A DNA stretch of 36,425 bases from Candidatus Zhuqueibacterota bacterium. GTDB taxonomy: Bacteria > Zhuqueibacterota > QNDG01 > JABMRT01. The stretch is taken from contig JABMRT010000084.1 in the NCBI GenBank assembly GCA_013202295.1, positions 1 to 36,425 on the forward strand, given 5' to 3'. Shown here in pieces: positions 9,396 to 34,524 of this stretch. The position numbers and the translations under genes were made by a program. A model generated the notes under the pieces. The model ran no database searches and was not told the DNA's origin. It saw nothing but the letters and a program-made list of their open reading frames with translations. Numbering within the stretch: the stretch's first letter is position 1; every line of letters starts with the position of its first letter.

Positions 9396-9450
9396 GGAAT
9401 CTCACCGGTTGAGGATTGTGTATCGCTTTATTTATTTTCCATCTGCATCA

Positions 9451-12537: not shown

Positions 12538-12538
12538 A

Positions 12539-13814: not shown

Positions 13815-13845
13815 ATAATCCGATTCCTTTTTCAAGTCAAGGATA

Positions 13846-19155: not shown

Positions 19156-22100
19156 CAATCTTCTTTGATTAATTCAAGCTCATTAAAAACACTGAATAGC
19201 TGCTTGTTGCTGAATCCCCGGAGATCCAGAGCGCCGCAACGGCAGGATGCCACACACGTGCCGCATCCCTTACAGAGAGCGTCATTCACTTCAGCCACCT
19301 GGGTTTCAGGATTCACCTCAATAGCCGTATAGGCGCAGACCTCTTCACAGTAGCCGCAACCCGAACAGAGATCAGCATTGATCTCGGCAATCGTCCCTTC
19401 AGCCAGTATGGATTCTTTGGTCAGAAAAGAGAGTGCGCGGCTTGCCGCTGCCTGGGCCTGAGCCATGGTTTCATCCATATCTTTTGGACCATGAGCCAGT
19501 CCGCAGACAAATATACCATCTGTTGCGAAATCCACGGGACGCAGCTTGACATGGGCTTCAAGGAACATGCCGTCTGCGTTGAGGGGTACTTTCAGCATTT
19601 TGGCCAATGTGGAATTCTCTTCCAAGGCATCAATCCCTGCGGACAGAACAACCAGATCAGCAGCGATGACAACCTCTTTCTCCATGATGGGATCAAAGGC
19701 AGTCACAGTCAGTTTACTGTTCGGATCATCAATTGTCTGCACTTCAACCTTGGGCTTGCCGTCCGGTTCAAACCGAAGGAACATTGCGCCTTTGTCCCTG
19801 AGCTCAGTATAATACTTCTCTTTAAATCCATAAGTCCGGATATCACGATAACAGACAAAGATGTCGGCGCGGGGATTCACTTTCTTCAGTTCCAGTCCGT
19901 TTTTCATGGCATCTGAACAGCAAACCCGGCTGCAGACCATTTTATCAGGCTCTCGGGATCCCACACACTGAATCATGACCACATTCCTCAGACGGCCTTT
20001 CGGGAAGGACTGATCATGAATCATCTTTTCGAATTCTGTTTGTGTCACAATTCGGGTTGACTGCCCATAACCATATTCAGATGGACGGTGTTCTTTGGCG
20101 CCTGTGGCTACAATGACCGCCCCATGTTCCACCGTGGTCTCTTTATCAGTTTTAGGAGAATGAATGGTGGTTGTAAAATTGCCTACATAACCATTTATCT
20201 GTTGTATTTCATGGTTGACAAGCAACTCAATAGCCTTATGTTTCTTTACTTTTTGGATTGTCTCTGAAAGCAGTGCCTGAGGATCCTTACCGCTTAAATG
20301 GTAGTACAGTTTTCTCACATGACCGCCGAGCTCTTTATCTTTTTCCACCAGCACGACTTCATGCCCGGCTTCAGCGATAGAGAGAGCGGCAATCATGCCA
20401 GCCAAACCGCCACCGATCACAAGCGCTTTTGGATTGATACCGATAGGCAGTCTTTCAAGAGGGGATAAATTCCGCGCCTTGGCCACGGCCATCTTAACCA
20501 GATCACCGGCCTTGGATGTGGCCAGTTCGGGCTCATCCATATGCGCCCAGGAGCACTGATCACGAATATTGGCCATTTCAAAAAGATAGGGATTCAAACC
20601 GGCTTCCTTGATGGTCTCCCGGAACAGGGGTTCATGGGTACGGGGTGTGCAGGCTGCCACCACGATCCGATTAAGATGATGTTCCTCAATGCGCTGTTTG
20701 ATGGTCTCAAGACAATCGGAGGAGCAGGCATACATGACATTTTCGGCATGCTCTACATTGGGCAGTTCGCCTGCTTCAGCAGCAACTTTTTTTACATCCA
20801 CCACACCGGCGATGTTGATGCCGCAGTGACAGACAAAGGTTCCGATACGGGGCCGTTCACCGATGACATTGATCTCACCGCTTTCACCATCTGATGCTGC
20901 CAGAGCCTGCCGTTCAATTTTAAGAGATTTCAAGGTACCTGCCACGGCGCCTGAGGCGGCCACAACCGACTCGGGTATATCTTTGGGGCCGTTCATTCCG
21001 CCGCACACATAAATGCCTGGTCTGGAGGTCTGCACCGGCTTGAAGGCTTCGGAACGGCAGAATCCGAACTCATTTAAATTGATATCCAGTTGACCGGCCA
21101 GTGCTTCCAGATTCTTGCGTGGCTCCAAGCCAATGGACAGCACTACCATATCAAACTGTTCATACCGGATCTCTCCGTTTTCCAGCGAATACTTCAGTTT
21201 CAGTGTGCCATCTTCCTTTTCCCTGATTTCCGAGATCTTGGACCGGATAAATTTTACACCATACTGATTCTGGGCCTTGTCATAGTATTTGTCAAAGTCT
21301 TTGCCAAAGGCACGGATATCCATATAAAATACAGTAGGCTCCAGAGCCTTGATATGCTCTTTGGCAATGATGGATTGTTTGATGGCAAACATGCAACAGG
21401 CAGAAGAACAATAGTTTTTATTGATGGATTCATCCCGTGAACCCACACACTGTATAAACGCAAGCTTTTTGGGCTCCTTTTGATCAGATGCCTTGACTAC
21501 ATGACCGCCAAAGGGCCCGGATGCAGAGAGCATACGTTCGAATTCCAGTGAAGTCACCACATTTTTATACAGATGGTAGCCAAAATGGCCAAATCCGATG
21601 GGATTAAAAGCATCAATGCCCGTGGCCATGATCACAGCTCCCACCTTGAGTTCTACTTCCTGATCCTTGTCATCAAACTTGATGGCTCCGGCCGGACAGG
21701 TCTTTTCACAAAGCTTACAAACGCCTTTGGTCAGATACAGACAGTGCTCTTTGTCAATCGTATATTCGGCAGGAATACTTTGCAGGAAATATCGTGAGAT
21801 GGCCTTGCGTTTACGAAGGGCCATGTCGAACGCGTCATCTACTTTTACCGGACACTTTTCTTCACACAGACCGCAGGCGACACATTTAACCGGATCCACA
21901 TACTTGGCTCTTTTAAGCACACGACATTTGAGATTGCCAGGATCACCCGTAATAGATGTTACCGAAGACAAGGTATGAAGTGTGATACCCGGGTGCCTCG
22001 CACATTCGCTCATTTTAGGAGAAAGGATACACATGGAACAGTCATTGGTAGGAAAGGTCTTGTCTAACTGGGGCATGCGTCCGCCAATAGTAGGCGATTC

Positions 22101-22205
22101 TTCCACCAAATGGACATCCAGACCCATTTCCGCCAGATCCAGCGAAGCCTGTATGCCAGCAATACCGGCACCTACAACCAGTACAGATTTACTTTTTTTG
22201 GCCAT
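19155..22205 (-). CDS. hdrA: Double HdrA (two HdrA-type flavoprotein halves in one chain)
   Basis: 1016 residues made of two HdrA-like halves. The first has the FAD loop VVGAGIAGIQ (residues 11-20), FPTNDCSMC, [4Fe-4S] Cys108/111/114/118, a second cysteine group at 155/163/166/170, and YCSSACCMFA. The second starts near residue 460 with RIGTFVCHCGINI, has its own FAD loop VIGGGLAGM (about 625) and CSRVCC, and ends with two ferredoxin motifs (CSGCGYCEEVC, CKGCGTCVASCRCG). HdrA is the flavin site of electron bifurcation in Hdr complexes; two FAD sites are expected here. The layout also equals QmoA plus the HdrA part of QmoB. It is followed by dsrE and flxDCBA and preceded by mvhD. Confidence 0.93.
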   Translation of the reverse strand: MAKKSKSVLVVGAGIAGIQASLDLAEMGLDVHLVEESPTIGGRMPQLDKTFPTNDCSMCILSPKMSECARHPGITLHTLSSVTSITGDPGNLKCRVLKRAKYVDPVKCVACGLCEEKCPVKVDDAFDMALRKRKAISRYFLQSIPAEYTIDKEHCLYLTKGVCKLCEKTCPAGAIKFDDKDQEVELKVGAVIMATGIDAFNPIGFGHFGYHLYKNVVTSLEFERMLSASGPFGGHVVKASDQKEPKKLAFIQCVGSRDESINKNYCSSACCMFAIKQSIIAKEHIKALEPTVFYMDIRAFGKDFDKYYDKAQNQYGVKFIRSKISEIREKEDGTLKLKYSLENGEIRYEQFDMVVLSIGLEPRKNLEALAGQLDINLNEFGFCRSEAFKPVQTSRPGIYVCGGMNGPKDIPESVVAASGAVAGTLKSLKIERQALAASDGESGEINVIGERPRIGTFVCHCGINIAGVVDVKKVAAEAGELPNVEHAENVMYACSSDCLETIKQRIEEHHLNRIVVAACTPRTHEPLFRETIKEAGLNPYLFEMANIRDQCSWAHMDEPELATSKAGDLVKMAVAKARNLSPLERLPIGINPKALVIGGGLAGMIAALSIAEAGHEVVLVEKDKELGGHVRKLYYHLSGKDPQALLSETIQKVKKHKAIELLVNHEIQQINGYVGNFTTTIHSPKTDKETTVEHGAVIVATGAKEHRPSEYGYGQSTRIVTQTEFEKMIHDQSFPKGRLRNVVMIQCVGSREPDKMVCSRVCCSDAMKNGLELKKVNPRADIFVCYRDIRTYGFKEKYYTELRDKGAMFLRFEPDGKPKVEVQTIDDPNSKLTVTAFDPIMEKEVVIAADLVVLSAGIDALEENSTLAKMLKVPLNADGMFLEAHVKLRPVDFATDGIFVCGLAHGPKDMDETMAQAQAAASRALSFLTKESILAEGTIAEINADLCSGCGYCEEVCAYTAIEVNPETQVAEVNDALCKGCGTCVASCRCGALDLRGFSNKQLFSVFNELELIKED

Positions 22206-22231: not shown

Positions 22232-22657
22232 CTATATAAACATATTCTTTCGGGTCGGGTTTGGACCCATTTTTTGGATCTTGTCAGTAAACTCATTACA
22301 CACACGGGCGAACTTGGGTCCCTCAGAGGCCGATATCCATGACAGCCTCAACCGATCTTTCTCCAGGTTCAGCGAATCAAAAATGGATTGAAGGATGGCG
22401 AATCGCCGCCGTGTGTGATAGTTGCCCGATTCATAATGACAATCCCCCGGATGACAGCCGCCAATCAGCACGCCGTCAGCGCCTTTCAAAAAAGCCCGGA
22501 TTAAAAAAACCGGATCGACACGGCTTGAACACATCACCTTGATGGGGATAATGGCCGTGGGATACTGAAGCCGGCTGGTTCCTGCCAGATCCGCGCCTGT
22601 GTATGAACACCACTTGCATAAAAAAGCGGTTATTTTAGGATTGAATGTTTTTCCCAT
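22232..22657 (-). CDS. mvhD: MvhD-like hydrogenase iron-sulfur subunit (second copy)
   Basis: 141 residues. The cysteine motifs FLCKWCSYTGADLAG, VMCSSRVDP and GGCHPGDCHY match the MvhD family [2Fe-2S] protein. It is encoded 26 bases before the double HdrA and is its likely binding partner, while the FlxC-like genes upstream could supply electrons. No Mvh [NiFe] hydrogenase subunits are present, so the donor is not H2 via MvhAG. Confidence 0.88.
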   Translation of the reverse strand: MGKTFNPKITAFLCKWCSYTGADLAGTSRLQYPTAIIPIKVMCSSRVDPVFLIRAFLKGADGVLIGGCHPGDCHYESGNYHTRRRFAILQSIFDSLNLEKDRLRLSWISASEGPKFARVCNEFTDKIQKMGPNPTRKNMFI

Positions 22658-22703: not shown

Positions 22704-23801
22704 TTATTCACCCAGTTCCTTGAATTCTTCCTCTTTAAATACCAAAACCGGGATATCCTCATTCACATCCTTCCCTGGCACATAATCAAATAATGCTGCC
22801 GTATTCTCACCAATTTTCTTGAAAACAGAGGCCACAGGAATATCTGCAGGACACACATCCGTGCATTGACCGCAGCCCACGCAGGAAAAGCTCATGTGAC
22901 TCATTCTGCCCAGATGAAAAAAGAGTGTGTCAGGAGGAAGACGAAGCGCCCCTTTTTGCTCCAGTTCTTTTTCGAAGAGCGAGACATTTTGATCAAAATT
23001 CCGGGACTCAAAATCACAAAGGAGGCAATAGCAGATGGGACAGACACGGCTGCATCCATGACAGCCGATACATTTACCGAAGACATCAATCATGCCATCC
23101 AGACCATCCTGCTTGAATTTTATAGATTCGAACAAGGCTTTCTTTTCTTTTTCACGCTTTTTAAGATGGTCATCCAGAATTTTAGCATCCAGATCACCAT
23201 TTTCGACACTGCCAAAACCTTCTGTCATTGAGACTGCTTTATCCGAATTCAGGATAAATCGGCATTTGGAATCCAGGTTCTGCTCACCCACAACCGAGAC
23301 CGTAATATCCGCGGTCATGGGGACAAAGTACTCACAGGCTTTGCAGGTAGGTCTTATACTCTCGGGTATTTCACCAGCCTTCACCTGTTTATAGTAATCT
23401 TTTGTCAGGTTGTCCTTGGATTTTTTAATATAAGTGTCGAGAGGAATCACTCCTCCACAGGTCGGGGATAGGGTCAGCACATTGTCCAGGCTCCCCTGCT
23501 CCCGTTTGATCCGTTCCACAAAACCACGGAGTTCACAGGGTTTAACCACCACAGCAATCGGTTTCTGGGTCGGTGTAATCAACGAGAGGCTCTGGGCCGC
23601 ATTCGCCGGCATGACCGGCATGAGCGGCACGGCCCGGTCGAGTTCCTGGCTCCGGGTCAATAAACCGTAATCCAGAGAGCCGCTGGTATTGGTTTTTCGA
23701 AGAGTAAGCACCCCACTGACTTTCTCTGTATCCAGTAAAAATCTTAATAAATCAACGACACTTTTATCAGCGCCGTGATCAGTGGTCAACATTTTACTCA
23801 T
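22704..23801 (-). CDS. FlxC-like 4Fe-4S dicluster protein (second copy)
   Basis: 365 residues. FrhB-like features are IAVVVKPCELRGFVERIKRE, LSPTCGGVIPLDTY, and RPTCKACEYFVPMTADITV. Two ferredoxin motifs follow: CIGCHGCSRVCPICYCLLC and CVGCGQCTDVCPADIPVASV. It is longer than the copy at 17373-18338 and most like the adjacent gene at 23794-24960, which it overlaps by 8 bases; the pair looks like a tandem duplication. Role inferred: electron relay to the MvhD/HdrA pair encoded downstream. No FlxA or FlxB gene accompanies this pair. Confidence 0.8.
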   Translation of the reverse strand: MSKMLTTDHGADKSVVDLLRFLLDTEKVSGVLTLRKTNTSGSLDYGLLTRSQELDRAVPLMPVMPANAAQSLSLITPTQKPIAVVVKPCELRGFVERIKREQGSLDNVLTLSPTCGGVIPLDTYIKKSKDNLTKDYYKQVKAGEIPESIRPTCKACEYFVPMTADITVSVVGEQNLDSKCRFILNSDKAVSMTEGFGSVENGDLDAKILDDHLKKREKEKKALFESIKFKQDGLDGMIDVFGKCIGCHGCSRVCPICYCLLCDFESRNFDQNVSLFEKELEQKGALRLPPDTLFFHLGRMSHMSFSCVGCGQCTDVCPADIPVASVFKKIGENTAALFDYVPGKDVNEDIPVLVFKEEEFKELGE

Positions 23802-24960
23802 GGGGACTCTCCTGTGATTCAGCGCTTTTTGTCATCTCGTGAATTTTTTTGAGTTCATCCTCTTTATATTCTTTCAACGGAATGGCTTCTCCTGCCGTCT
23901 TCCCGGCTTTATATTCAAATGCCTGTTGTGTTTGGGCTGCCACATAACTGAACACCTTGGCAACCGGAATGGAGACCGGACAGGCATCCGTGCACTGACC
24001 GCAGGATACACAGGAAAGCGACATGTGTGACAACCGCCCGACATGGAACATAAGCCGGTCATGCGGAAGAGAAATGCCGCCACGTTTTTCCGCTTTATCC
24101 AGGTAATAAGCGGATTCAAGACTGGATTCCTTTGAATCAGAATAGCACTGCCTGCAGTAACAGATGGGACAGGCACTCTGGCAGTTATGACAACCAATGC
24201 AGTTGGAAAAAGTGTCCGCCAGGTTGTCGAATCCTTCTACCATTGGCTGAATGGTTTGAAAGGCTTTGTCCATTTGCTGGATTCTCTTTTTCTGTATGGA
24301 ATCAGTCTGTTTTTCCCAGGCGGATGGTTCTTCATCAACCTTCAATCCTGTGGCTGACAGAAACGCAGTTCCTTTTTCTGATCCGGAGATCAACAGCAGT
24401 TGACTGGTATCCGGATCGGCCATGCCTATATGGACATCGGCTGCTCCCATTGAGAATTCCGTACAGAACTGACAGACCGGTTTAACTGCTGTACTTTCAA
24501 AGTTACGCTCAGAGAGCAGACCCATGAACGCCTCTTCTGTATCTTGGGGGGCGTCTGACATATCAGACAACGGCAAAGCGCCTGGACAGTCATAGCTGAT
24601 CAACGTTACGTTGTCGAGATTGATTTGATTTAATTTGGACAGCTCAATAGTCCCGCGCACTTCACAGGGACGCATCATGGCCGCCACACGAAGAGACCCG
24701 TTTCCTTTTCGTGTCAGGCTTTTCAGGGCCTTGGCACCCTGAACAGGCATCACCGCAGCCATAGGCGATGCTTCCTCCTCGACCAGGGCAGGATCCTGCA
24801 TCAGAATCCAAGCATAACTGTCTCCAGAGGGAACTTTAACAGGCAGGAGCAATGCATCAATCAGATCGCTCTTAAGGGACTCCTTCAATACTTTTCGAAG
24901 GGTTTGTTCAATTCCATTTTCTATGGGTATTCTACCACCAGATTTTGAGTCTGTACTCAT
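23794..24960 (-). CDS. FlxC-like 4Fe-4S dicluster protein (third copy)
   Basis: 388 residues. It shows VAAMMRPCEVRGTIELSKLN, SYDCPGALPLSDM, and VKPVCQFCTEFSMGAADVHIG (FrhB-like), then CIGCHNCQSACPICYCRQC and CVSCGQCTDACPVSIPVAKV. The start is ATG 24960 with AGGAGT 5 bases upstream (an in-frame TTG at 24963 is also possible). It lies between the QmoB-like HdrA gene and the second copy, so it could work with either HdrA set. The C-terminal tail is charged and has no clear domain. Confidence 0.8.
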   Translation of the reverse strand: MSTDSKSGGRIPIENGIEQTLRKVLKESLKSDLIDALLLPVKVPSGDSYAWILMQDPALVEEEASPMAAVMPVQGAKALKSLTRKGNGSLRVAAMMRPCEVRGTIELSKLNQINLDNVTLISYDCPGALPLSDMSDAPQDTEEAFMGLLSERNFESTAVKPVCQFCTEFSMGAADVHIGMADPDTSQLLLISGSEKGTAFLSATGLKVDEEPSAWEKQTDSIQKKRIQQMDKAFQTIQPMVEGFDNLADTFSNCIGCHNCQSACPICYCRQCYSDSKESSLESAYYLDKAEKRGGISLPHDRLMFHVGRLSHMSLSCVSCGQCTDACPVSIPVAKVFSYVAAQTQQAFEYKAGKTAGEAIPLKEYKEDELKKIHEMTKSAESQESPHE

Positions 24961-25007
24961 CAATGACTCCTAGCATACAATTTCAACATAATCCATTTTC
25001 ATTGGGC

Positions 25008-26696
25008 CTATTGCACGGCCTCAATCATTTCCTGGTAGAGCTGTGGGTTGGTGAAATGTTTAAGCTGAATGGCACCCGAGGGACAACTGCCCACACAGTT
25101 ACCACATCCCCGGCATACGGCTTCTTTCACCACAGATATCCCTTTGTCTTCATCAAAAACGATGGCCCCGTAATGGCAGACTTCCAGACAGGTTTTACAC
25201 CCCATGCAAAAGGCTTCCAGCGTTTCGGAAACCCTGACTTCGGGAACAATTTGTTCACCGGGAATAAGCTGTACCCTAATCTTGCTGGCCGCAGCTTGAG
25301 CCTGAAGCAGTGTTGCCTGGATTCCCCGTGGCCCGTGGGCCGTACCGACGATAAAAATACCGTCCGTGGCCGTGGCAACCGGATTGATGGCCTGATGGGC
25401 CTCCTGAAAAAATCCGGTTTCATGCAGCGAAATTCCAAGTTTTGTTGCAAGATCGGGTGTTCCATCAGCCGGTATCATGGCCGGAGCCAGAACCACCATA
25501 TCAAAGAGCTCGCTCCCCTCATTTTCATCCATGGTTGTGAATTTAATCTGACTTCCTTCTGTCGCGATCCGGTTGACACGAACAAATTCAACGCCCTGGG
25601 CTTTGATCTCATTATAAAATGCCTGATCATCCTGATGAGGCAGGCAAAGGTCTCGGAAAAAGACTTTAACTGTTGTATCAGGTGATTGTGTTTTGAATCG
25701 GGCGGCAAGCTTGATCATTGCATTACAACAGATCTGTGAGCAATATCCGACTTCCTCCCGTCCCACGCAGTGAATCATGGCCACCGACTTGGGTGCCTTA
25801 CCAGAACGTGTGGTCACCTGATTTTTTTCAGCGATCATTTGTTCAATTTGTAAAGCAGTGTACACTTCATCATCACCGCTGAAGATAAAATCCGGATGTG
25901 TGGACGCATCATACAGGCTGAAGCCCGAAGCCACGACCATAGCTCCGATTTTCAGTTCGGTCATTTTCTCAGCATCGTCTATACTGCGGACCTCCGCTTC
26001 AAAATTACCGAGAAATCCAATAATTCTGTCAAGGCGGGTATTCAGCATGACCTGAATATGCGGATGATCCTGAACCGTTTGAATTTTTAATTGGATGGCC
26101 TCTACTGCATCCTGCTGTTTGGGCAGTACCGTTTTAAAGGTGGCAGCTTTACCACCAAGCCGATCCGTTTTTTCAATCAGGAAAACCTGACGGTCGGCAT
26201 CCGCCAAAGACAATGCCGCCTCAATACCGGCAATACCGCCGCCGATTACCAATACATCCGGATTGGTGTCCAGCTTATTTTCGAACAATTCCGATTGATA
26301 CAGCACTCGCCGCAATCCGCCTCGTATGTATTGAATGGCTTTTTCTGTGGCTTTGTCTTTATCATGGATGATCCAGGCACAGTGCTCACGAATATTGATC
26401 AATTTATAAAGATAAGGATTGAGCGATGTCTCCTTGCAGACACCGATAAACGTGTTGTTATGGTCACGAGGTGAACAAGCACCGATGACCAAATGGGTCA
26501 ATCCATTTTCCTCAATCTCCTGCTTCAGATAGTCTTTCCCTTCGCCGGAACAGAGCAGGCCGTAAGGTTTGGCAACAATTTCCAAATCATCTGCATCGTT
26601 AAATGCGGATACACTCTCAATGATTTTATCGATATCCACATTGTCTGCAATATTGGGTCCGCATTGACAAATATAAATTCCAACTTTCTTCTTCAT
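25008..26696 (-). CDS. HdrA C-half (QmoB-like) flavoprotein
   Basis: 562 residues equal to the second half of the double HdrA. It starts directly with VGIYICQCGPNI, has GACSPRDHNNTF and INIREHCAW, the FAD loop [12 protein letters not shown] (about 150), CVGREE...YCSQICC, and two ferredoxin motifs at the end (CMGCKTCLEVC, CRGCGNCVGSCPSGA). QmoB of sulfate reducers is an HdrA of this kind with an extra MvhD-like part; here the MvhD part is a separate gene (28112-28549). It lies 41 bases after the QmoA-like gene. Electrons would pass between FAD, ferredoxin clusters and the MvhD protein. Confidence 0.9.
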   Translation of the reverse strand: MKKKVGIYICQCGPNIADNVDIDKIIESVSAFNDADDLEIVAKPYGLLCSGEGKDYLKQEIEENGLTHLVIGACSPRDHNNTFIGVCKETSLNPYLYKLINIREHCAWIIHDKDKATEKAIQYIRGGLRRVLYQSELFENKLDTNPDVLVIGGGIAGIEAALSLADADRQVFLIEKTDRLGGKAATFKTVLPKQQDAVEAIQLKIQTVQDHPHIQVMLNTRLDRIIGFLGNFEAEVRSIDDAEKMTELKIGAMVVASGFSLYDASTHPDFIFSGDDEVYTALQIEQMIAEKNQVTTRSGKAPKSVAMIHCVGREEVGYCSQICCNAMIKLAARFKTQSPDTTVKVFFRDLCLPHQDDQAFYNEIKAQGVEFVRVNRIATEGSQIKFTTMDENEGSELFDMVVLAPAMIPADGTPDLATKLGISLHETGFFQEAHQAINPVATATDGIFIVGTAHGPRGIQATLLQAQAAASKIRVQLIPGEQIVPEVRVSETLEAFCMGCKTCLEVCHYGAIVFDEDKGISVVKEAVCRGCGNCVGSCPSGAIQLKHFTNPQLYQEMIEAVQ

Positions 26697-26737
26697 GTTC
26701 TATCCCTGCTTTTAACTGAAAGTACCGATGACAGTGA

Positions 26738-28033
26738 TTAGGATGTCAAGGATGACAGGCGAGCCAGCATGCCGCCCACCGCAGATTCCGCCTGTGTAAC
26801 AGAACTTTGAACATCTTTGGGTCCTTCCGCGCATCCGGCTAAAAATACACCCTCCCTTGCTGTTTCCACAGTGCTTAATCCACCGGATTTGAGACCAAGG
26901 AAACCGATTTCTGTGGTTTCAATCCCTGCAATTCGGCTGAGCACCTCCGTATCTTTACCGGGAATGATGGCAGGTGCCAAAATCACCATATCCACATTCA
27001 GGGAAGCCTCCTTACCCTTTGCGTCGATATACGCCACATTCAGTACACTGTCAGCTTCCGTGACCTTGATATCTTTCATTGATGTATGGAAAATAGACTG
27101 GGTTTCTTCTATAATATTTTTTTGAAACTTCTGATGGGTTTTATCTGGGACACAAAAATCTGTATACAGGTTGAACAGTTTGACATCTCCCAACTTGTGC
27201 TTAAGAAAATGGGCATGTTTTAAGGAAACCATGCAGCAAACACCGGAACAATACCCCTGTTCCTCCCGACCCACACAATGAATCATGGCAACGGCCTTCG
27301 GCTGTCTGTCACTGTTCCTGATCTTGATTTCACCCAAAGTGGGACCGTTCGAAGCAAAAAGTCTCTCAAATTCAATGGATGTATAAACACTCGGATATTT
27401 GCCATATCCAAACTGTGTCAATTGACTGACATCAAAGAGATCAGAGCCGGTAGCAAGTAGTATGGCGCCCACTTCAAGCTGCATCTGCTCATCTGTCTCA
27501 CTGAGATCAATTGCGCCGAACATGCAGGCTTCTACACAGGCATTGCATTCCTTCTTGCCACTGAGCTGCAGGCAGTGCTCAGCCTCAATGGCAGGTACAT
27601 TAGGCAAGGAACCGGCTGTGGGCACATAGATGGCCTTTTTTTCTCCCAGATTTTCTTCCCACTCATTACTGAGTGAAACCGGGCAGGGTTCATAACACAT
27701 CCCGCAGCCTATGCAGTCAGTCATACTGGCATAACGGGCTTTTTTCAGAACAGATACCTCAAAATGACCCACATCCCCGTCAATCTTCTCCACGGTACTC
27801 AACGTCATCGTTTCAATGTTGGGATCCTGTAAAACAGCCTGCTGAATGGGAGCAACCATGCACGTCGAACATTCCAGATTGGGGAAACTCTCTTCATTTT
27901 TTATGACATTCCCGCCAATCAAAGAAAGTTTCTCAACTAAAAAGACTTTCTTGCCCGATTTTGCCAACATGAGACTTGCTTCCATGCCTGCAATACCAGC
28001 CCCTATGACCAAAACCTGATTGCTAAAACTCAT
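26738..28033 (-). CDS. HdrA N-half (QmoA-like) flavoprotein
   Basis: 431 residues equal to the first half of the double HdrA: FAD loop VIGAGIAGMEAS at residues 9-20, FPNLECSTCMVAP, [4Fe-4S] motif CIGCGMCYEPCP, a second cysteine group (HCLQLSGKKECNACVEAC), and YCSGVCCMVS. It ends with the usual FAD-domain end (GVFLAGCAEGPKD) and lacks C-terminal ferredoxin motifs. QmoA is of similar size and layout. With the next gene it makes a split version of the 1016-residue protein. A weak terminator-like hairpin lies just upstream (28064-28083). Confidence 0.9.
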   Translation of the reverse strand: MSFSNQVLVIGAGIAGMEASLMLAKSGKKVFLVEKLSLIGGNVIKNEESFPNLECSTCMVAPIQQAVLQDPNIETMTLSTVEKIDGDVGHFEVSVLKKARYASMTDCIGCGMCYEPCPVSLSNEWEENLGEKKAIYVPTAGSLPNVPAIEAEHCLQLSGKKECNACVEACMFGAIDLSETDEQMQLEVGAILLATGSDLFDVSQLTQFGYGKYPSVYTSIEFERLFASNGPTLGEIKIRNSDRQPKAVAMIHCVGREEQGYCSGVCCMVSLKHAHFLKHKLGDVKLFNLYTDFCVPDKTHQKFQKNIIEETQSIFHTSMKDIKVTEADSVLNVAYIDAKGKEASLNVDMVILAPAIIPGKDTEVLSRIAGIETTEIGFLGLKSGGLSTVETAREGVFLAGCAEGPKDVQSSVTQAESAVGGMLARLSSLTS

Positions 28034-28054
28034 GGTTGATTCCTTCTTTTATCG

Positions 28055-28083
28055 AAATACAAAAAAGTCTTTACTATGACTTT
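28055..28083 (-). terminator. Weak internal terminator or attenuator
   Basis: On the minus strand AAAGTC and GACTTT form a 6-bp stem with an 8-base loop (28064-28083), followed by TTTTG. The stem is AT-rich, so termination would be partial. It sits between the MvhD gene and the QmoA-like gene. Confidence 0.4.
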
Positions 28084-28111
28084 ATTACATCTGGATGGTA
28101 TCATATCCACC

Positions 28112-28549
28112 TTAGAACAGGCTGCTCTGGTTGATTGGATTTGGTCCAAGAGCTGTGATCTTTTCCGTAAATGCATTGACAACCTCGGCGTACCGATTCC
28201 CTTCCGCAGCTGAAATCCAGGATAATTGCAACCGCCCGGGATCAAGATTCAAAGTCTCAAATACTTGTTTCATCTGTGCATACCGTCTACGTGTAAAATA
28301 ATTACCCTTGCCATAGTGACAATCTCCGGGATGACAACCGGCAATAAGAATCCCGTCCGCACCATTAAAATAAATGGTTAATATTAGGTTCGGATCTACA
28401 CGGCTTGAACACATAACTCGAATCACAGTAAGCGCAGAATCAATCTCCATCTTGGAGGATCCGGCCAGGTCTGCTGCCGCATAGGTACACCAGTTGCATA
28501 GAAATCCGACAATTTTGGGTTTAAATTCATTTTGATTTGGCTTATCCAT
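28112..28549 (-). CDS. mvhD: MvhD-like hydrogenase iron-sulfur subunit (third copy)
   Basis: 145 residues with FLCNWCTYAAADLAG, VMCSSRVDP and AGCHPGDCHYGKG, as in the other two MvhD copies. It leads the QmoA/QmoB-like pair, and likely fills the place of the MvhD-like C-terminal part of QmoB. The ribosome site is weak. A hairpin (28589-28627) separates it from the tusA gene. Confidence 0.88.
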   Translation of the reverse strand: MDKPNQNEFKPKIVGFLCNWCTYAAADLAGSSKMEIDSALTVIRVMCSSRVDPNLILTIYFNGADGILIAGCHPGDCHYGKGNYFTRRRYAQMKQVFETLNLDPGRLQLSWISAAEGNRYAEVVNAFTEKITALGPNPINQSSLF

Positions 28550-28588
28550 GTTTTCTCACAACTATGTCTATCTGTTGTTATTGGATTT

Positions 28589-28627
28589 GGGAGCACCGGC
28601 ATCCGCACTTGAATGCCGAATGCTCCC
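28589..28627. other. Intergenic hairpin between tusA and mvhD
   Basis: GGGAGCA and CGGCAT on one side pair with ATGCCG and TGCTCCC on the other, with a small internal bulge and a 10-base loop. No T-run follows on either strand, so a terminator is unlikely; it may set mRNA stability or processing. Confidence 0.55.
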
Positions 28628-28633
28628 TGAAAA

Positions 28634-28858
28634 TTAAATCTGAATCTGGGCTGAGTGTTTGCCGTTTGCATCCGTACTGCACATCAGCAGAGTTTTCCCT
28701 GTTTTGCCACACCAGGCTTTGATATCAGGTGGAAACGAGGGACAATCGGCTTCAACTTCCAAAATGTCGCCTGCATTCATTGTTGGAATCAACGCCACAA
28801 CCTTCAGGATGGGCTGTGGACATTTTAGTCCTAATGCATCTAATTTCTGAGTCGCCAT
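28634..28858 (-). CDS. tusA: TusA-like sulfur carrier (cysteine-rich copy)
   Basis: 74 residues. The signature LDALGLKCPQPILK holds the sulfur-carrying cysteine; the later part (ILEVEADCPSFPPD, AWCGKTG, LLMCSTDANG) adds three more cysteines not seen in the second TusA at 34238-34471. TusA moves persulfide sulfur between rhodanese, DsrE and oxidoreductases. It precedes the third MvhD and the QmoA/B-like genes and follows the DsrE-like gene by 17 bases, as expected of a sulfur-feeding unit. The ribosome site AAAGGAGA supports the start. Confidence 0.9.
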   Translation of the reverse strand: MATQKLDALGLKCPQPILKVVALIPTMNAGDILEVEADCPSFPPDIKAWCGKTGKTLLMCSTDANGKHSAQIQI

Positions 28859-28875
28859 ATTGTTCTCCTTTACAA

Positions 28876-29235
28876 TTAAAACGAAAGACTTAGTTCACAT
28901 CCAGTCGCTTCCCCAACAAATGTGGTGGCACCCACGACTTCACAACCTTCACGTAAATCTTCTTCTTTAAAGCCATGAACATCAAAGGCCAGTTCACAAA
29001 CAAGCAGTTTAGCACCAAGCCCAATCAGACCTTCCAGCATTTCGACAATATCCGGCATATTCTTGGTCTCTTCCTTCAATTTCTCAATAGCTCCTTTCAC
29101 CATGGTTGGAGCCCCGCTTGGTGTAAAGAAGAGAACAACATCGTCCCCTGACGCTGCAGAGGACACACCGATGATAATGGCGGGGAAGATATTCTTACCC
29201 TCCGCACCATTGACAGTAATTACTGTTTTTGCCAT
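28876..29235 (-). CDS. DsrE/F-family protein (DsrE2-like)
   Basis: 119 residues. The fold is typical of DsrE/DsrF/DsrH-like proteins: INGAEGKNIFPAII-type start (here VNGAEGKNIFPAI), VLFFTPSGAPTMVKG, then LLVCELAFDVHGF with the likely active thiol, and FVGEATGCELSL. No transmembrane segment is seen. It sits next to tusA, and such pairs are common in sulfur oxidation gene sets, where DsrE-type proteins pass sulfur to TusA. The start has GGGAGG 7 bases upstream. Confidence 0.82.
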   Translation of the reverse strand: MAKTVITVNGAEGKNIFPAIIIGVSSAASGDDVVLFFTPSGAPTMVKGAIEKLKEETKNMPDIVEMLEGLIGLGAKLLVCELAFDVHGFKEEDLREGCEVVGATTFVGEATGCELSLSF

Positions 29236-29278: not shown

Positions 29279-30136
29279 TTACTCAACCGGGCAGGAAGCA
29301 TCAGCAGCCCATTCGAAAAAGGCCCCGTCATAAACTTTCACTTTGGGATACTCGAGTAGTGCAGTCAATGCCATATAAACAATCCCGGCACGGGCACTGG
29401 TTTCACAGTACAGAATGACTTCCTTGTCACTGGTCACACCAGCATCCGCCATGATTTTGGCGATATCTTCTTTGGATTTAAGTGTTCCATCCTCATTAAG
29501 AATCAACTTATATTCAAAATTGATAGCTCCGGGGATGTGACCCATGCGAGCTGTGAGACCCTTTTCACCATCGAATTCGACTAAGGCTCGCACATCAACC
29601 AGAACGACTCCTGAATCCTCCAGATGAGCTTTCACATAATCCTTTTTCACAATCAGGGCTTCCTGTGGAGTCGCCGAAAAAGTTATCGCTGTAATCTCAG
29701 TGGCTTTTCTCGTCACGGGTTTCCGAGCTTTTCTCCAGTTCTTCATCCCTCCACCCAGAATCCGAACATCCTGACAGCCGAGATATTTCAACATCCAGTA
29801 GATTCTTCCTGAAGTAATATTCTTGCCACCATCATAGACAACCAGCGTTTTCTTTTCTGAGATGCCTTTGCTCCCCAATATCTTTGCGATCTCAGCAGGA
29901 CTTTTTAGCAAGCCCTTCACATCGCCTGCCTGATAGAGATCCGAATGCCAGACATTCACAGCACCTTTAATATGGACCTTATCATAATCAGCACTTTTTC
30001 TCGTAGAAATAACAACCACATTATCACCATCAATAATATTGGCCAGTTCTTTCGAAGAAATAAGCTGTGCACTTGCAAGTTGGGTGAGTACGAGTACCAA
30101 GGCAATCAAGCATTGAAAAACAATACGTTTTTTCAT
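29279..30136 (-). CDS. Secreted tandem-rhodanese sulfurtransferase
   Basis: 285 residues from ATG 30136 (AAAGGAGG upstream). Signal peptide up to LASAQ, then two rhodanese domains. The first has VVISTRKSADYDKVHIKGA and VVYDGGKNITSGR, with no cysteine in the active loop. The second has LVDVRALVEFDGE and ILYCETSARAG, with the catalytic Cys. Only the C-terminal domain is expected to be active, as in thiosulfate and mercaptopyruvate sulfurtransferases. It probably works in the periplasm on thiosulfate or polysulfide. It follows the porin by 30 bases and precedes the DsrE-like gene. Confidence 0.87.
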   Translation of the reverse strand: MKKRIVFQCLIALVLVLTQLASAQLISSKELANIIDGDNVVVISTRKSADYDKVHIKGAVNVWHSDLYQAGDVKGLLKSPAEIAKILGSKGISEKKTLVVYDGGKNITSGRIYWMLKYLGCQDVRILGGGMKNWRKARKPVTRKATEITAITFSATPQEALIVKKDYVKAHLEDSGVVLVDVRALVEFDGEKGLTARMGHIPGAINFEYKLILNEDGTLKSKEDIAKIMADAGVTSDKEVILYCETSARAGIVYMALTALLEYPKVKVYDGAFFEWAADASCPVE

Positions 30137-30166
30137 ACTGCCTCCTTTTATATTAAAACAGAACAA

Positions 30167-31195
30167 TTATTGAATAATGACCTGAGCCTGGACGAGCACT
30201 TGATCATTATCAATTTCCACGTTATCCGCTTCTGCACAATACCGGTAATTGACCTGAAGTCGCGTCCATTCATTCAGGAAATAATTGAAACCAAATGTAA
30301 TAATAGAACGCTGATCATTTTCAACATCGATATTCTGATCGAATGTTTCATATTTGACAACAGGCTGCAAGCTGAATGGAAGCATGTATAAGGCCTGTAC
30401 AAAATAGCCGTTCCGCTTCACCGAACCTTCATGAATCTCGAGTGGCTCACCACAACCACCGCCAGTTGTATACGAGCCAATATCTTCACGCTGGATATAT
30501 TCTCCCTGCACCAACAAATCACCCTTTTTAAAACTGACATCCCCGCCAAAAGCCTTGCGTTCATCATCGTCCGCATTGGCGACGGCAGCCTTGGCTGATC
30601 CAAAACGGAAACTGCCGCCAATATCGAGGCATTTTGTCGGTGAGAAAACAATCCGCCCTGTGATATCCTCGCCCTCATTGTCATCGCGCAGACCAACTCC
30701 CGTACCGTTCATCAGGGCCACGTTGTATTTCACCTTTTCCTTTACATTGCCCATTAACATCACACCCATATCACGATCCATGGCCAGTTGATTGACGACC
30801 ATCGACCGATTGATTGTGTGCAGTGCAGAGCAGCCGGTGTTCCGTTCGAGGCTGAAAGGAGCCTTAAACTGCCCCATTGATATCTTGAAGTAGGGAGCAA
30901 GGCGTGAATAGGTAATAAAAGCATCTAAAAGATAGGGATGCTCTCCTTTCGAAGGGCTATATTCTACAAACATATAATAGCTGATATCATAGGGCACATT
31001 CCCGACGAGTCCAATACGCGCCCGATTGAAATCAAAAGTCATCTCTTCGGTTTCCTGCAAATATTCAAACTGTGGCTGGAAAAATCCCATCACTGAGACA
31101 CCCTCTTCAGAAGATGCTTCCATACAACCCTGCCCCTGGGCTAAAAAGGGAATCATCATCAGAAATACCAGTAATATCAAGGTAAACCTACGCAT
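30167..31195 (-). CDS. Outer-membrane porin (phosphate-selective porin O/P family type)
   Basis: 342 residues from ATG 31195 (AAAGGAGT upstream). Signal peptide MRRFTLILLVFLMMIPFLAQG. Mature motifs such as GFFQPQFEYLQE, FDFNRARIGLVGNV, ISYYMFVEYSP, ISMGQFKAPFSLERN and the late TFGFNYFLNEWTRLQVNYRY are typical of the Porin O/P family. It ends in a short strand (VLVQAQVIIQ). Within a sulfur gene cluster it likely admits sulfur anions such as thiosulfate, but selectivity cannot be told from sequence. A strong hairpin (31212-31247) lies just before its ribosome site. Confidence 0.85.
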   Translation of the reverse strand: MRRFTLILLVFLMMIPFLAQGQGCMEASSEEGVSVMGFFQPQFEYLQETEEMTFDFNRARIGLVGNVPYDISYYMFVEYSPSKGEHPYLLDAFITYSRLAPYFKISMGQFKAPFSLERNTGCSALHTINRSMVVNQLAMDRDMGVMLMGNVKEKVKYNVALMNGTGVGLRDDNEGEDITGRIVFSPTKCLDIGGSFRFGSAKAAVANADDDERKAFGGDVSFKKGDLLVQGEYIQREDIGSYTTGGGCGEPLEIHEGSVKRNGYFVQALYMLPFSLQPVVKYETFDQNIDVENDQRSIITFGFNYFLNEWTRLQVNYRYCAEADNVEIDNDQVLVQAQVIIQ

Positions 31196-31211
31196 GTTCA
31201 CTCCTTTTCTG

Positions 31212-31247
31212 TCAGCCATTGGGGAGGCATACTTCCCCAATGGCTGA
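31212..31247. other. Strong hairpin directly before the porin ribosome site
   Basis: A perfect 14-bp inverted repeat (TCAGCCATTGGGGA and its complement TCCCCAATGGCTGA) with an 8-base loop. It lies 4 bases before the AAAGGAGT ribosome site of the porin. No T-run follows, so it is not a classical terminator; processing or stability control is more likely. Confidence 0.75.
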
Positions 31248-31294
31248 AACATCAAGAATTAATAGAAGGAAAAAATTCAATTGATGCAAAATAA

Positions 31295-32257
31295 TTAATT
31301 ACTCTCCACAGTATAATCACCGGATCCAGTCCATTTGTGCGCGGTCAAATTGTCGTAAATCAGACCGTTCACGCCGAACTTGAGACTTGTAGCATCAAAT
31401 CCTAGAACAGTCAGATAGGCTGTAATCATGGAAGATGTCTGACCGGTCCAGCAGTATGTTACCACTGTTTTTGTCGGATCCAAGTTACTGATTTCACCAT
31501 TCTCTAAAGTCAATGGATTGATTCGATATGCACCCGAAATATGACCATATGTCGCGACATCCGCTTCAGCAAAATAGTTATTGATAAAATAATTGGCGGG
31601 AGTGGTAAGGACATCTGATCCAGCAACGGCTTTAAATCCACCAGTAAGCATGGCTGTAACACGCTCTGCAAGGATAGCAGCTCCCTCGGAAGCGGTCACA
31701 GACAAGCCAGGAGCATCAAACACTGCCGGTGTTGCTGTGGCATCGGTTGACCAGTTGGCATGTCCAACCGCAATATTACCAGTATTGGATGTCCACCCAT
31801 CAAATGCGGCCGACCATGAACTCATTCCGAATTTCAGAACTTGTGCAGTAGAATACCCTGACAACCTGAGGGCAATCACAGCATGACCTGCAGTTTGGCC
31901 TGATTTACATACAACGATGATGGGGTTCCCGCCGCTGTTACCCGCATCGGTTACAATCGTACCCAGTGTTGATTGTACTGCTCCAGCGATACGACCAGCA
32001 GCAAAATCATCAGCTGAACGGATATCCATAATATAGTAGTTGGCTTCATTGCCGGCCACATCAGCCGCGACAATAAATCCAGCATTGAGCACATCCGACA
32101 GATCCATGTCATTGGCAACCAGATAATCAGTTAAAACTTCATAAGCGGCCGCTGCTGCCTCGGGTTCATTGACCTTCCCTTTACAACCGGCAAACAGAAT
32201 AGCCACTGCCATCAGAGCCAGTACAACATATCTCAGAACTTTTTGCTTCAAAACCAT
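31295..32257 (-). CDS. Rhodanese tandem lipoprotein
   Basis: 320 residues from ATG 32257 (AAGGAGG upstream). Signal peptide with lipobox LFAGC, lipidated Cys25. Two rhodanese domains follow, both with an active-site cysteine: IIVVCKSGQTAGHA in the first and VVTYCWTGQTSSM in the second, each with a preceding MDIRSADDF or related strand. It is membrane-anchored on the periplasmic side. Two active domains in one lipoprotein, next to a porin and a sulfur transporter, suit capture or transfer of sulfane sulfur at the envelope. Upstream is a 166-base gap with no clear promoter. Confidence 0.87.
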   Translation of the reverse strand: MVLKQKVLRYVVLALMAVAILFAGCKGKVNEPEAAAAAYEVLTDYLVANDMDLSDVLNAGFIVAADVAGNEANYYIMDIRSADDFAAGRIAGAVQSTLGTIVTDAGNSGGNPIIVVCKSGQTAGHAVIALRLSGYSTAQVLKFGMSSWSAAFDGWTSNTGNIAVGHANWSTDATATPAVFDAPGLSVTASEGAAILAERVTAMLTGGFKAVAGSDVLTTPANYFINNYFAEADVATYGHISGAYRINPLTLENGEISNLDPTKTVVTYCWTGQTSSMITAYLTVLGFDATSLKFGVNGLIYDNLTAHKWTGSGDYTVESN

Positions 32258-32423
32258 TATTACCTCCTTAATAAAATTTCGCCTTGTGATATAATAAAAC
32301 AATAACCAGTTCATCATTTTCTTTAACGTATCCTTCCTAACCTATCTGTTTTCACCCCTCCTCTCATGATAATAAAGCTAGAATATCACTTATTTATTTT
32401 TGATCTCTCAGACGGAATAAGGA
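32258..32423. other. Intergenic leader without a recognised site
   Basis: It holds the ribosome site of the rhodanese lipoprotein. A Rex-like stretch at 32284-32302 has a 5-base rather than 4-base spacer and is not called. Confidence 0.4.
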
Positions 32424-32942
32424 TCAGGCTCCGCAACCTTCTTCAACGACAACTTCTTCTTCAACCTCGAGAGCGTCCGGGCCGTGTTCCCATACAGTCC
32501 ATCCACCATAGAGGTATTTGACCTTGTTATACCCAAGTTTTACCAATGTTTCTGCAGCCATGGCTCCCCGGTCAATCTTCTGCCCATAAACAATAATTTC
32601 CTCATCCTTTTCGGGAGCAAACATGCCTTCATCATCCCAAAACGCCTCATCAGCAATTTTAAATTCCAGGAGTCCCCTTGAGATATTGACCGATCCTGCT
32701 ATATTTCCCTCGTCATACTCGTGGCGTTCTCTGATATCCAGAAGAATGAACATATCATCACTCTCCATCTTGGTATTAAACGCCTCGATTTCAATCTTTT
32801 CGATCCCTGCCTTCGCTTCGGCTACCATGACTTTTACTCCATCATAAGCATGAGGAGCTCTGCCATTGATACCGGCGCCTCCACAACCAATAATCAGCAA
32901 AAGGGATACTAAAAGCAACGTCGTCATGATGGTTTTCTTCAT
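32424..32942 (-). CDS. Single rhodanese-like lipoprotein lacking the catalytic cysteine
   Basis: 172 residues. Signal peptide with lipobox LLIIGC (Cys20). A single rhodanese fold runs from about residue 50 to 155: ILLDIRERHEYDEGNIAGSVNI is typical in segments, and the active loop reads VYGQKIDRGA, with Gly where Cys normally sits, so sulfur transfer is not expected. The C-terminus ends EEGCGA with a free cysteine. It may bind a sulfur compound or a partner protein. It is encoded 15 bases after the YedE-type transporter, so the two are likely co-made. Confidence 0.85.
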   Translation of the reverse strand: MKKTIMTTLLLVSLLLIIGCGGAGINGRAPHAYDGVKVMVAEAKAGIEKIEIEAFNTKMESDDMFILLDIRERHEYDEGNIAGSVNISRGLLEFKIADEAFWDDEGMFAPEKDEEIIVYGQKIDRGAMAAETLVKLGYNKVKYLYGGWTVWEHGPDALEVEEEVVVEEGCGA

Positions 32943-34237: not shown

Positions 34238-34471
34238 TTAATTTTTACGGATGTAGAACTTGTAAACACCACCCTCTTCGTCTGTTCCAAGTAACTCATT
34301 TCCTGTTTTATCGCACCATTTGGGTACATCTGATTTCGATCCAGGATCTGTTCCCAATAGTTCCAGTACCTGTCCTGAGTCCATGCCCTTAATCTCTTTT
34401 GCCAACTTCAAAATCGGCATCGGACAAGACAAACCTTTACAATCAAGCTGTTGATCTACTTTGACATCCAT
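34238..34471 (-). CDS. tusA: TusA-like sulfur carrier
   Basis: 77 residues from ATG 34471 (GGGAGG upstream). The signature LDCKGLSCPMPILKLAKEI-type start (here QLDCKGLSCPMPILK) holds the sulfur-carrying cysteine of the CPxP motif; the end reads VPKWCDKTGNELLGTDEEGG. TusA/YeeE pairs are a known functional unit for thiosulfate uptake, as here. It is the first gene of the long minus-strand series, and its promoter is visible. Confidence 0.92.
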   Translation of the reverse strand: MDVKVDQQLDCKGLSCPMPILKLAKEIKGMDSGQVLELLGTDPGSKSDVPKWCDKTGNELLGTDEEGGVYKFYIRKN

Positions 34472-34524
34472 TACTATGCCTCCCTTTTGGTACAAATGTA
34501 GTATGAGTTATAAAATTGAGCAGT

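Follow-up and report, generated by a model that had tools for sequence, protein, structure and literature searches.

The core genes and the split HdrA pair

The window analysed here, a complete contig (C63) of 36,425 bases from a metagenome-assembled genome (MAG) of Candidatus Zhuqueibacterota (5.15 Mb in 303 contigs; completeness 95.65%, contamination 1.71%), encodes a split pair of proteins related to HdrA of heterodisulfide reductase (Hdr), located behind genes for DsrE-, TusA- and MvhD-type proteins. The two proteins have the shape of QmoA and QmoB and are designated QmoA_l and QmoB_l. Five core genes follow one another in the same orientation on the minus strand (25008–29235). They code for a DsrE-like sulfurtransferase of 119 residues (28876–29235; Pfam DrsE_2/DsrE; Cys80 in 16/16 sequences), a TusA sulfur carrier of 74 residues (28634–28858; Pfam, 4.6e-16; Cys13 in 18/18), the stand-alone MvhD (FlpD) protein MvhD1 of 145 residues (28112–28549; Pfam, 3.8e-48), the QmoA-like HdrA subunit QmoA_l of 431 residues (26738–28033; Pfam and NCBIfam matches, a structure match and alignment to HdrA), and the QmoB-like HdrA subunit QmoB_l of 562 residues (25008–26696; Pfam and NCBIfam matches and alignment to HdrA). 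The successive intergenic gaps measure 17, 84, 78 and 41 bp. All five open reading frames (ORFs) listed in the initial annotation are thus real, lying on the minus strand and being supported by Pfam or NCBIfam matches. Its delimitation of the unit to 25008–29235 had to be given up, since the core is the middle of a minus-strand run of about 25 genes extending beyond both ends, with limits near 34911 on one side and at 10735 or lower on the other. The core arrangement is not due to chance, because the same order recurs in other phyla at about 49–80% protein identity.

QmoA_l aligns to HdrA residues ~139–560, that is, the FAD module with the inserted ferredoxin, and is devoid of the HdrA N-terminal domain and of the C-terminal ferredoxin. 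QmoB_l comprises the HdrA N-terminal cluster domain, an FAD module without the ferredoxin insert, and a C-terminal 2×[4Fe-4S] part. The description of the pair as an HdrA N-half and an HdrA C-half consequently holds as far as the HdrA type of both proteins is concerned; they are not simple halves, the domains being distributed otherwise according to the alignment. The HdrA fold and the cluster cysteines are present in the pair, and a structure model of QmoA_l matched 8rwn_A with Z 41.2 and a root-mean-square deviation (rmsd) of 3.0 over 364 aligned residues. The quality of the structure models was middling, with a mean predicted local distance difference test score of 71 for QmoA_l and of 69 for the FdhB-like protein FdhB1 discussed below, low values in the ferredoxin parts, and a poor last third of FdhB1.

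Cys58 of QmoA_l corresponds by alignment to residue 197 of HdrA in 5odc. This column holds a cysteine in 16/16 QmoA_l and in 0/16 QmoB_l sequences, and the N-terminal cysteines 10, 12, 49 and 74 are present in 16/16 QmoB_l sequences and in none of the QmoA_l. In the parts of Chadwick et al. (PMC9012536) that bear on this point, Cys197 is described as the residue with which one subunit completes the N-terminal cluster of its partner, and complementarity between Cys197 and the N-terminal domain is proposed as the mark of a heterodimeric HdrA. With an N-terminal domain and no Cys197 in QmoB_l, and the reverse in QmoA_l, the sequences do agree with what this rule requires of an obligate HdrA heterodimer. 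An HdrA-HdrA fusion protein encoded further downstream in the window shows the same Cys197/N-terminal-domain pattern inside one chain.

Linkage to TusA and DsrE across genomes

A scan of 84,980 named species genomes revealed 33 loci, 32 of which contain close QmoA_l orthologs (52–67% identity). According to the depositors' titles, from which all phylum labels of these MAGs are taken, they derive from Neomarinimicrobiota, Latescibacterota, Eisenbacteria, Krumholzibacteriota, Aegiribacteria, Fermentibacteria, Cloacimonadota, Delongbacteria, an 'Armatimonadetes' bin and an unclassified Zodletone bacterium. Within the phylum of the window, 2 of 82 genomes possess a QmoA_l ortholog. The core order dsrE-tusA-mvhD-qmoA_l-qmoB_l-fdhB-fdhB recurs in the orthologous loci. 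A tusA gene is located within ~1.7 kb upstream of qmoA_l in 17 of the 32 loci; four of the 15 loci without tusA at this place (L070, L074, L082, L083) offer less than 1 kb of upstream sequence.

The module is strongly linked to this particular type of TusA. This TusA type was detected in 28 of 28 module-bearing genomes (best E-values of at most 2e-25) and in only four of 289 relatives (E ≤ 1e-20), figures that describe a co-occurrence without phylogenetic correction, because the 28 genomes were chosen for the module and belong to other lineages than most of the 289. The four relatives, i.e., the genome of the window, G008, G179 and G212, all carry the cassette; in G179 and G212 it was detected only via the TusA search. 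Counting by location, 35 TusA places remained at ≥55% identity (38 rows minus three duplicates; the cut-off drops two places of 43–44%). A dsrE gene lies at most 5 kb away on the same strand in 33/35 of them, and a split QmoA-like gene does so in 29/35. The remaining places comprise two at contig ends, three extra copies elsewhere, and one (L139) beside a gene for a 655-residue HdrA, which had been labelled qmoA_l and was excluded from the adjacency count. The tie of a QmoAB-shaped, split HdrA pair to TusA and DsrE instead of adenosine 5'-phosphosulfate (APS) reductase, as put forward in the initial annotation, is therefore borne out, and it is broad across genomes.

The absence of aprAB likewise stood up as far as aprA is concerned: AprA gave no match above the cut-off in the whole genome, and a search of the same type did find aprA in G017, which belongs to the same phylum. 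DsrA had no match in the genome either. None of the contig's ORFs with Pfam annotation resembled QmoC, small ORFs being unannotated and the rest of the genome lying outside this search.

Several genomes without an adjacent tusA hold a second, diverged cassette elsewhere (L132–L138). Found in Aegiribacteria/Fermentibacteria genomes, it has the order dsrE-tusA-mvhD-qmoA_x, continues with qmoB_x-fdhB-fdhB where the contig reaches that far, and is mostly preceded by an ArsR gene. QmoA_x falls in one clade with QmoA_l (support 100/100), and QmoB_x likewise with QmoB_l. At L139 (1116–6685, genome G332), genes for the 655-residue HdrA, MvhD, a 326-residue ORF and a [NiFe] hydrogenase large subunit are located directly before dsrE-tusA, and this gene set might possibly represent an H2-driven version of the system.

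Neighbouring genes and the proposed reaction

The genes preceding the core, all on the minus strand as are those following it, resemble a line for the import of sulfane sulfur. The run starts with an ArsR-type repressor of 88 residues (34645–34911; Pfam HTH_5), followed by a second TusA (TusA2; 34238–34495; Pfam TusA, 1.3e-27), which occupies the same place before yedE in L055, L058 and L068, and by a YeeE/YedE-type sulfur transporter (32958–34169; Pfam Sulf_transp, 6.6e-43; NCBIfam YedE and TsuA models below cut-off). Rhodanese 1 (32424–32942; Pfam; Cys20 and Cys170 in 4/4) and the tandem rhodanese 2 (31295–32317; Pfam; Cys45, Cys137 and Cys289 in 4/4) have lipoprotein-like N-termini, and the tandem rhodanese 3 (29279–30166; Pfam, 3.7e-38; Cys254 in 6/6) has an N-terminal signal-like stretch; these N-termini were read by eye from the sequence, without a predictor. 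Also read by eye, the usual catalytic place of rhodanese 1 contains no cysteine. An outer-membrane porin of the Porin_O_P type (30167–31255; Pfam, 9.7e-18) is encoded between rhodaneses 2 and 3, and the gap between the genes of rhodanese 3 and DsrE is 43 bp. Just upstream of the run, on the same strand, lies a gene for a Rex-family NADH/NAD+ sensing repressor (34955–35590; NCBIfam Rex models up to 245 bits, above cut-off; Pfam), which presumably is connected with the run.

Downstream of qmoB_l, two FdhB-like subunits are encoded at 23794–24963 (FdhB1; structure model against 7bkb_E and 8rvu_E) and 22704–23801 (FdhB2; phmmer 9t1s_M 2e-34, 8rvu_E 4.9e-29, 7bkb_E 2.5e-24). They are followed by MvhD2 (22232–22657; Pfam, 3e-52), the HdrA-HdrA fusion of 1016 residues (19155–22205; NCBIfam HdrA2, 1006 bits, below cut-off), a second DsrE-family protein (18796–19158; Pfam, 2e-23), MvhD3 (18332–18775; Pfam, 8.2e-55), and a third FdhB-like subunit (17373–18338; weak FrhB_FdhB_C and Fer4 matches). 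The next genes code for proteins resembling the beta subunit of sulfhydrogenase (HydB/AsrA; 16330–17367; 9nez_B, 1.2e-44; NCBIfam HydB/ShyB/AsrA below cut-offs) and its gamma subunit (HydG/AsrB), an NAD(P)H flavoprotein (15459–16292; Pfam, NCBIfam), an HdrC-like protein (14972–15442; TIGR03290, 1.5e-28, below cut-off), an FrhB-like flavoprotein (13846–14955; Pfam FrhB_FdhB_C, 9.7e-38), an HdrA fragment fused to a NuoE-like 2Fe-2S domain (299 residues; 12936–13835; Pfam, NCBIfam), and a NuoF-like NADH subunit (10735–12555; TIGR01959 with 507 bits, below cut-off; NF010120 above cut-off). A NuoG-like domain fused to HdrA (1085 residues; Pfam, NCBIfam) is encoded at 4637–7894. The segment 4637–13835 resembles a Bfu-type bifurcating core that is accompanied by regulators and joined to HdrA; besides NuoG-HdrA, HdrA/NuoE and NuoF it encodes DRTGG, CBS/HATPase and PHP proteins. 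The combination of HdrA modules, which occur in many complexes, with NuoEF-like bifurcating cores (Bam-Bfu) is described in PMC9304861.

A previous reading of the two proteins at 22704–24963 as AsrA-like was abandoned, as both sequence and structure matches are FdhB-like. FdhB2 matched FdhB-type subunits in structure entries that also contain HdrA (9t1s, 8rvu, 7bkb). The best matches of the FdhB1 model were subunits of Hdr supercomplexes, 7bkb_E with Z 22.6 (rmsd 5.3, 335 aligned) and 8rvu_E with Z 21.3 (rmsd 4.2, 321 aligned); against F420 hydrogenase beta chains it scored 16.5, well below these two values. The HydB-like protein matched the beta subunit of Pyrococcus sulfhydrogenase I (9nez, 1.2e-44).

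Core and import line, the latter comprising TusA2, YeeE/YedE, the rhodaneses and the porin, are joined in Neomarinimicrobiota, Eisenbacteria and Krumholzibacteriota MAGs. In L055, L058 and L068 the order yedE-rhd1-rhd2-porin-rhd3 precedes the core, as in the window, and L055/L151 (Neomarinimicrobiota) is a near gene-for-gene match down to NuoG-HdrA, with the second DsrE missing. In two Cloacimonadota contigs, the import line is located elsewhere, after hydB-hydG-hdrC, namely beside mvhD3-fdhB3-hydB-hydG-hdrC in L149 and beside hydB-hydG-hdrC in L150.

From this gene content we consider it somewhat more probable than not that the cluster encodes an NAD(P)H- and ferredoxin-linked HdrA supercomplex acting on a TusA/DsrE-bound persulfide, supplied by the sulfane-sulfur import line and working in the reductive direction. 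The porin and the exported rhodaneses would present polysulfide or thiosulfate sulfur to the YeeE/YedE transporter, and TusA2, DsrE and TusA would carry the sulfur in the cytoplasm as protein persulfide. QmoA_l and QmoB_l may form an obligate heterodimer, to which QmoB_l would contribute the N-terminal Fe-S domain and QmoA_l the trans-acting Cys58. MvhD and the FdhB-like flavoproteins could link this dimer to HdrA-HdrA, HydB/HydG, FrhB and NuoEF, and thus to NAD(P)H and ferredoxin. The net reaction would most likely be the conversion of TusA/DsrE persulfide to sulfide, with part of the energy saved as reduced ferredoxin by HdrA-type bifurcation. Gene content and order, conservation, co-occurrence, residue complementarity and the folds come directly from the analysis; we infer in this scheme the assembly of a single complex, the TusA/DsrE-bound sulfane substrate, the NAD(P)H and ferredoxin electrons, the direction and the flavin bifurcation; the electron exchange with a TusA-bound persulfide suggested in the initial annotation has the same standing. 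A more specific form of the proposal, which we regard as tentative and less probable than not, is that in an HdrA heterodimer working without HdrB the carrier persulfide of TusA/DsrE serves as the high-potential acceptor that drives ferredoxin reduction by NAD(P)H, and that sulfur respiration in many uncultured anaerobic phyla conserves its energy at this step. Such a heterodimer would represent a new class of enzyme for sulfane sulfur in the cytoplasm.

Reduction is favoured because neither AprA nor DsrA was found and because HdrB and LbpA, the companions of sHdr, were unseen on the contig. In addition, HydB/HydG and the nearby Rex gene point to NAD(P)H, and a hydrogenase takes the same place in L139. 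The direction is nevertheless the weakest step of the scheme; sHdr, the characterized system most closely analogous to it, is oxidative, and the authors of a study on Cloacimonadota also point to oxidation. The most serious rival, rather improbable in our view, is that imported sulfane sulfur is oxidized in the cytoplasm, as by sHdr, and that NAD+ and ferredoxin take up the electrons for use in CO2 fixation or H2 formation. In the sections of the respective papers that deal with these systems, sHdr gene sets are reported to hold TusA, DsrE and rhodanese genes as well (PMC6067878), sulfur destined for oxidation by sHdr is taken up through a YeeE-like transporter (PMC11582611), sHdr is under the control of ArsR-type repressors (PMC12423496), and a Cloacimonadota cluster of Hdr, TusA, transporter and rhodanese genes was read as sulfur oxidation (PMC8542988). 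Against this stand two negatives on the contig, where neither an HdrB-like CCG protein nor a match to a lipoate-binding protein (GcvH-like) was seen, both features being tied to sHdr, and again the lack of AprA or DsrA for the handling of sulfite.

Several further observations weigh against the reductive persulfide scheme. No CCG protein (HdrB) that could be a candidate for the persulfide-cleaving site was found on the contig, and elsewhere in the genome CCG proteins turned up twice, in frames of 665 and 1035 residues that are unlike HdrB. A search for DsrA in 28 relatives, weak in that no positive control was detected, yielded no match at E ≤ 1e-40. The QmoA_x proteins (L132–L137, L143) have lost the CXnCX3CC cysteines and have kept the ferredoxin and Cys58 positions. 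In L065, L066, L069 and L084, the pair is located behind HdrC-HdrB-HdrA-type genes and is not accompanied by tusA or dsrE; it therefore also works in another setting. Pfam confirmation of HdrB is confined to L065 and L144. All genomes compared are MAGs.

L144, from G212, joins both contexts in one run, HdrC, HdrB and HdrA genes being located directly before dsrE-tusA-mvhD1-qmoA_l-qmoB_l.

Relationship to Qmo and other HdrA systems

For phylogenetic placement, reference QmoA proteins were collected by searching 309 genomes with QmoA of G017, whose aprA scores above the curated cut-off and lies on the same contig. The search yielded 22 QmoA places, all with a QmoB neighbour, and the qmoAB genes adjoin aprBA in 9/9 loci examined. 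Eighteen of the 22 QmoA and 17 of the 22 QmoB were included in the trees, along with 16 QmoA_l rows (the window, G008, which corresponds to L086, and 14 rows from the 31 further orthologous loci) and 15 HdrA and nine HdrA-HdrA rows picked by hand; later trees add 5–7 QmoA_x rows. A QmoA search of plasmid records gave two partial HdrA-type matches.

QmoA_l and QmoB_l each form a clade of their own (support 100), outside QmoA, QmoB, HdrA and HdrA-HdrA, and the pair does not fall inside the QmoA and QmoB clades, which are themselves separate and fully supported. The phylogeny proposed in the initial annotation as a check on the Qmo assignment therefore separated the families; the position of the two relative to each other came out less clearly, a joint clade of Qmo and Qmo-like proteins being neither rejected by approximately unbiased (AU) tests nor recovered with bootstraps. 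When this joint clade was imposed, AU tests gave p values of 0.547, 0.563 and 0.758, with log-likelihoods of the constrained tree 1.55, 2.24 and 15.17 higher. For a concatenated subset (31 of 57 rows), p was 0.229 and the constrained tree was 3.5 log-likelihood units lower; this alignment prefers a grouping of the Qmo-like proteins with HdrA-HdrA (support 88). In bootstrapped LG+F+R4 trees, QmoA joins HdrA (73/89) and QmoB joins HdrA-HdrA (21/56), not the Qmo-like clade. The statement that the pair is clearly not a sister of Qmo was dropped, as none of the four AU tests allows it.

With two short tandem HdrA-type subunits of 431 and 562 residues, the locus shares the architecture of QmoABC. 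It differs in that the QmoB-like protein has no fused MvhD-like tail: QmoB_l comprises 562 residues here and 549–573 in full orthologs, compared with 714–754 residues in the full reference QmoB proteins (8/8), which have a further cysteine-bearing tail that is MvhD1-like in the four of eight for which blastp rows were shown. Most QmoB rows end at ~490 residues, the end of the fetched stretch, so that gaps after C497 in these rows are uninformative in the column test. The spacing n in the CXnCX3CC motif is 8 in 16/16 QmoA_l and 16/16 QmoB_l, 11 in 18/18 QmoA and 12 in 15/15 HdrA. An earlier assumption that QmoA is devoid of the trans cysteine was rejected, because the pattern used had measured C55, a position occupied by proline in 18/18 QmoA; the Cys58 column holds a cysteine in 18/18 QmoA too. 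Complementarity of the two chains is hence common to Qmo and does not separate the pair from it. Given separate clades, an unfused MvhD, another cysteine spacing, no AprA and no QmoC seen, plain membership in Qmo was discarded, and the label Qmo, assigned in the initial annotation, is retained in an architectural sense only.

A true branch of the Qmo family, in which the pair would be sister to QmoAB or belong to 'type II' QmoAB and would have exchanged APS reductase for a persulfide as its partner, appears unlikely to us. The split architecture and the Cys58 column are the same, the joint clade scores higher in three of the four AU tests, and the relevant passages of PMC10504309 describe 'type II' QmoAB as closer to HdrA and present without Apr/Dsr. 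On the other hand, the bootstrapped trees and the concatenated subset place the pair or Qmo otherwise, and the missing MvhD fusion, the cysteine spacing and the proline at C55 set the families apart. This alternative concerns descent and is compatible with either direction of the reaction.

TusA has many roles, and the four HdrA-clade loci devoid of tusA and dsrE would suit two merely neighbouring systems, i.e., an import line plus TusA/DsrE serving Fe-S clusters, thiolation or selenium next to a general NADH/ferredoxin converter with some other third substrate, but this alternative is distinctly improbable in view of the 28/28 co-occurrence, the 29/35 adjacency, the linkage kept in Cloacimonadota despite the moved import line, and the second cassette, which again has dsrE-tusA.

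Among characterized assemblies, the HdrABC-MvhAGD, HdrABC-FdhAB and Elp-Hdr supercomplexes (5odc, 7bkb, 8rvu) share the HdrA fold, MvhD and FdhB-type subunits with the predicted complex, whereas here HdrA is split into a heterodimer, TusA and DsrE are part of the operon, and no HdrB and no FdhA or MvhAG were seen on the contig. The heterodimeric or fused HdrA proteins of anaerobic methanotrophic archaea (HdrA 5/6, 12/13, 3/4), for which the cited passages of PMC9012536 set out the Cys197/N-terminal-domain complementarity, belong to an archaeal methane context, and the main text of that paper uses neither 'DsrE' nor 'sulfur carrier'. QmoABC is alike in having a QmoA- and QmoB-shaped HdrA pair with an MvhD-type module and differs in the respects listed above. 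The sHdr-LbpA system of Hyphomicrobium has TusA, DsrE, rhodanese, a YeeE-like importer and ArsR around an HdrA-type flavoprotein; the window differs from it in that neither a CCG-type HdrB nor LbpA was seen on the contig. Identity with sHdr was dismissed on the grounds that the contig has no CCG protein and its Pfam-annotated ORFs no GcvH-like match, LbpA being sought on the contig and not elsewhere in the genome. The YTD cluster, given as yeeE-tusA-dsrEFH type II in the part of PMC13293266 concerned, has YeeE/YedE, TusA and DsrE in common with the window; its two further genes are those of DsrF and DsrH, in place of which MvhD and the split HdrA follow directly here. Identity with YTD was dismissed because the gaps of 43, 17 and 84 bp in rhd3-dsrE-tusA-mvhD1 leave no room for dsrF and dsrH.

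A cluster that was published before comes from a Cloacimonadota MAG of Ace Lake, for which the pertinent passages of PMC8542988 mention Hdr genes together with TusA, a sulfur transporter and a thiosulfate sulfurtransferase whose signal peptide is predicted, and suggest sulfur oxidation. This locus is probably of the kind described here, although a split HdrA, MvhD, FdhB or a Qmo-like pair is not mentioned in the passages for that locus, and oxidation is assumed in them. In the portions of PMC4846661, PMC8248873 and PMC11129491 bearing on the subject, Hdr is named in general terms only, and that of PMC12998232 concerns YTD/MOLY markers. In the open literature searched, no paper was recognised as describing a QmoAB-like split pair of HdrA proteins with a link to TusA/DsrE.

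The module is a testable candidate for the use of sulfane sulfur without Dsr or Apr in many uncultured anaerobes, among them, by MAG label, Neomarinimicrobiota, Cloacimonadota, Delongbacteria, Eisenbacteria, Krumholzibacteriota, Fermentibacteria/Aegiribacteria and others. If the proposed reaction is true, the substrates of HdrA-type bifurcation would widen from small heterodisulfides to a carrier-protein persulfide. For annotation, it matters that a Qmo-shaped HdrA pair alone is no sign of sulfate reduction.

The MvhD proteins and the ArsR-type repressor show peculiarities in their cysteines. One cysteine of the CHPGDC motif of MvhD1 and MvhD2 is replaced by an in-frame TGA in 19 of 45 printed sites, all of them in Cloacimonadota, Delongbacteria and the 'Armatimonadetes' bin (L071–L081, L083), and MvhD1 and MvhD2 of one locus switch to TGA together where both are printed. 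The codon most likely encodes selenocysteine. Cys31 and Cys70 of the ArsR-type repressor recur in nine other ArsR ORFs near the module (10/10 including the window), a count that is biased because the ORFs were found with a partly cysteine-containing pattern (in L055 by eye). The repressor of the window has these two cysteines only. Compared by spacing without alignment, their positions seem to differ from the Cys50/Cys116 pair that the relevant part of PMC12423496 gives for sHdrR, a sulfane sensor of the SqrR/BigR/sHdrR type, and the spacing departs from that of sHdrR/SoxR. In L057, L061, L067, L070 and L085, the ArsR gene is located directly before mvhD1.

Another arrangement of HdrA-type genes was observed in L087 (Dehalococcoidia), where 6132–12835 contains three of them in a row, coding for 575, 652 and 1005 residues, together with MvhD.

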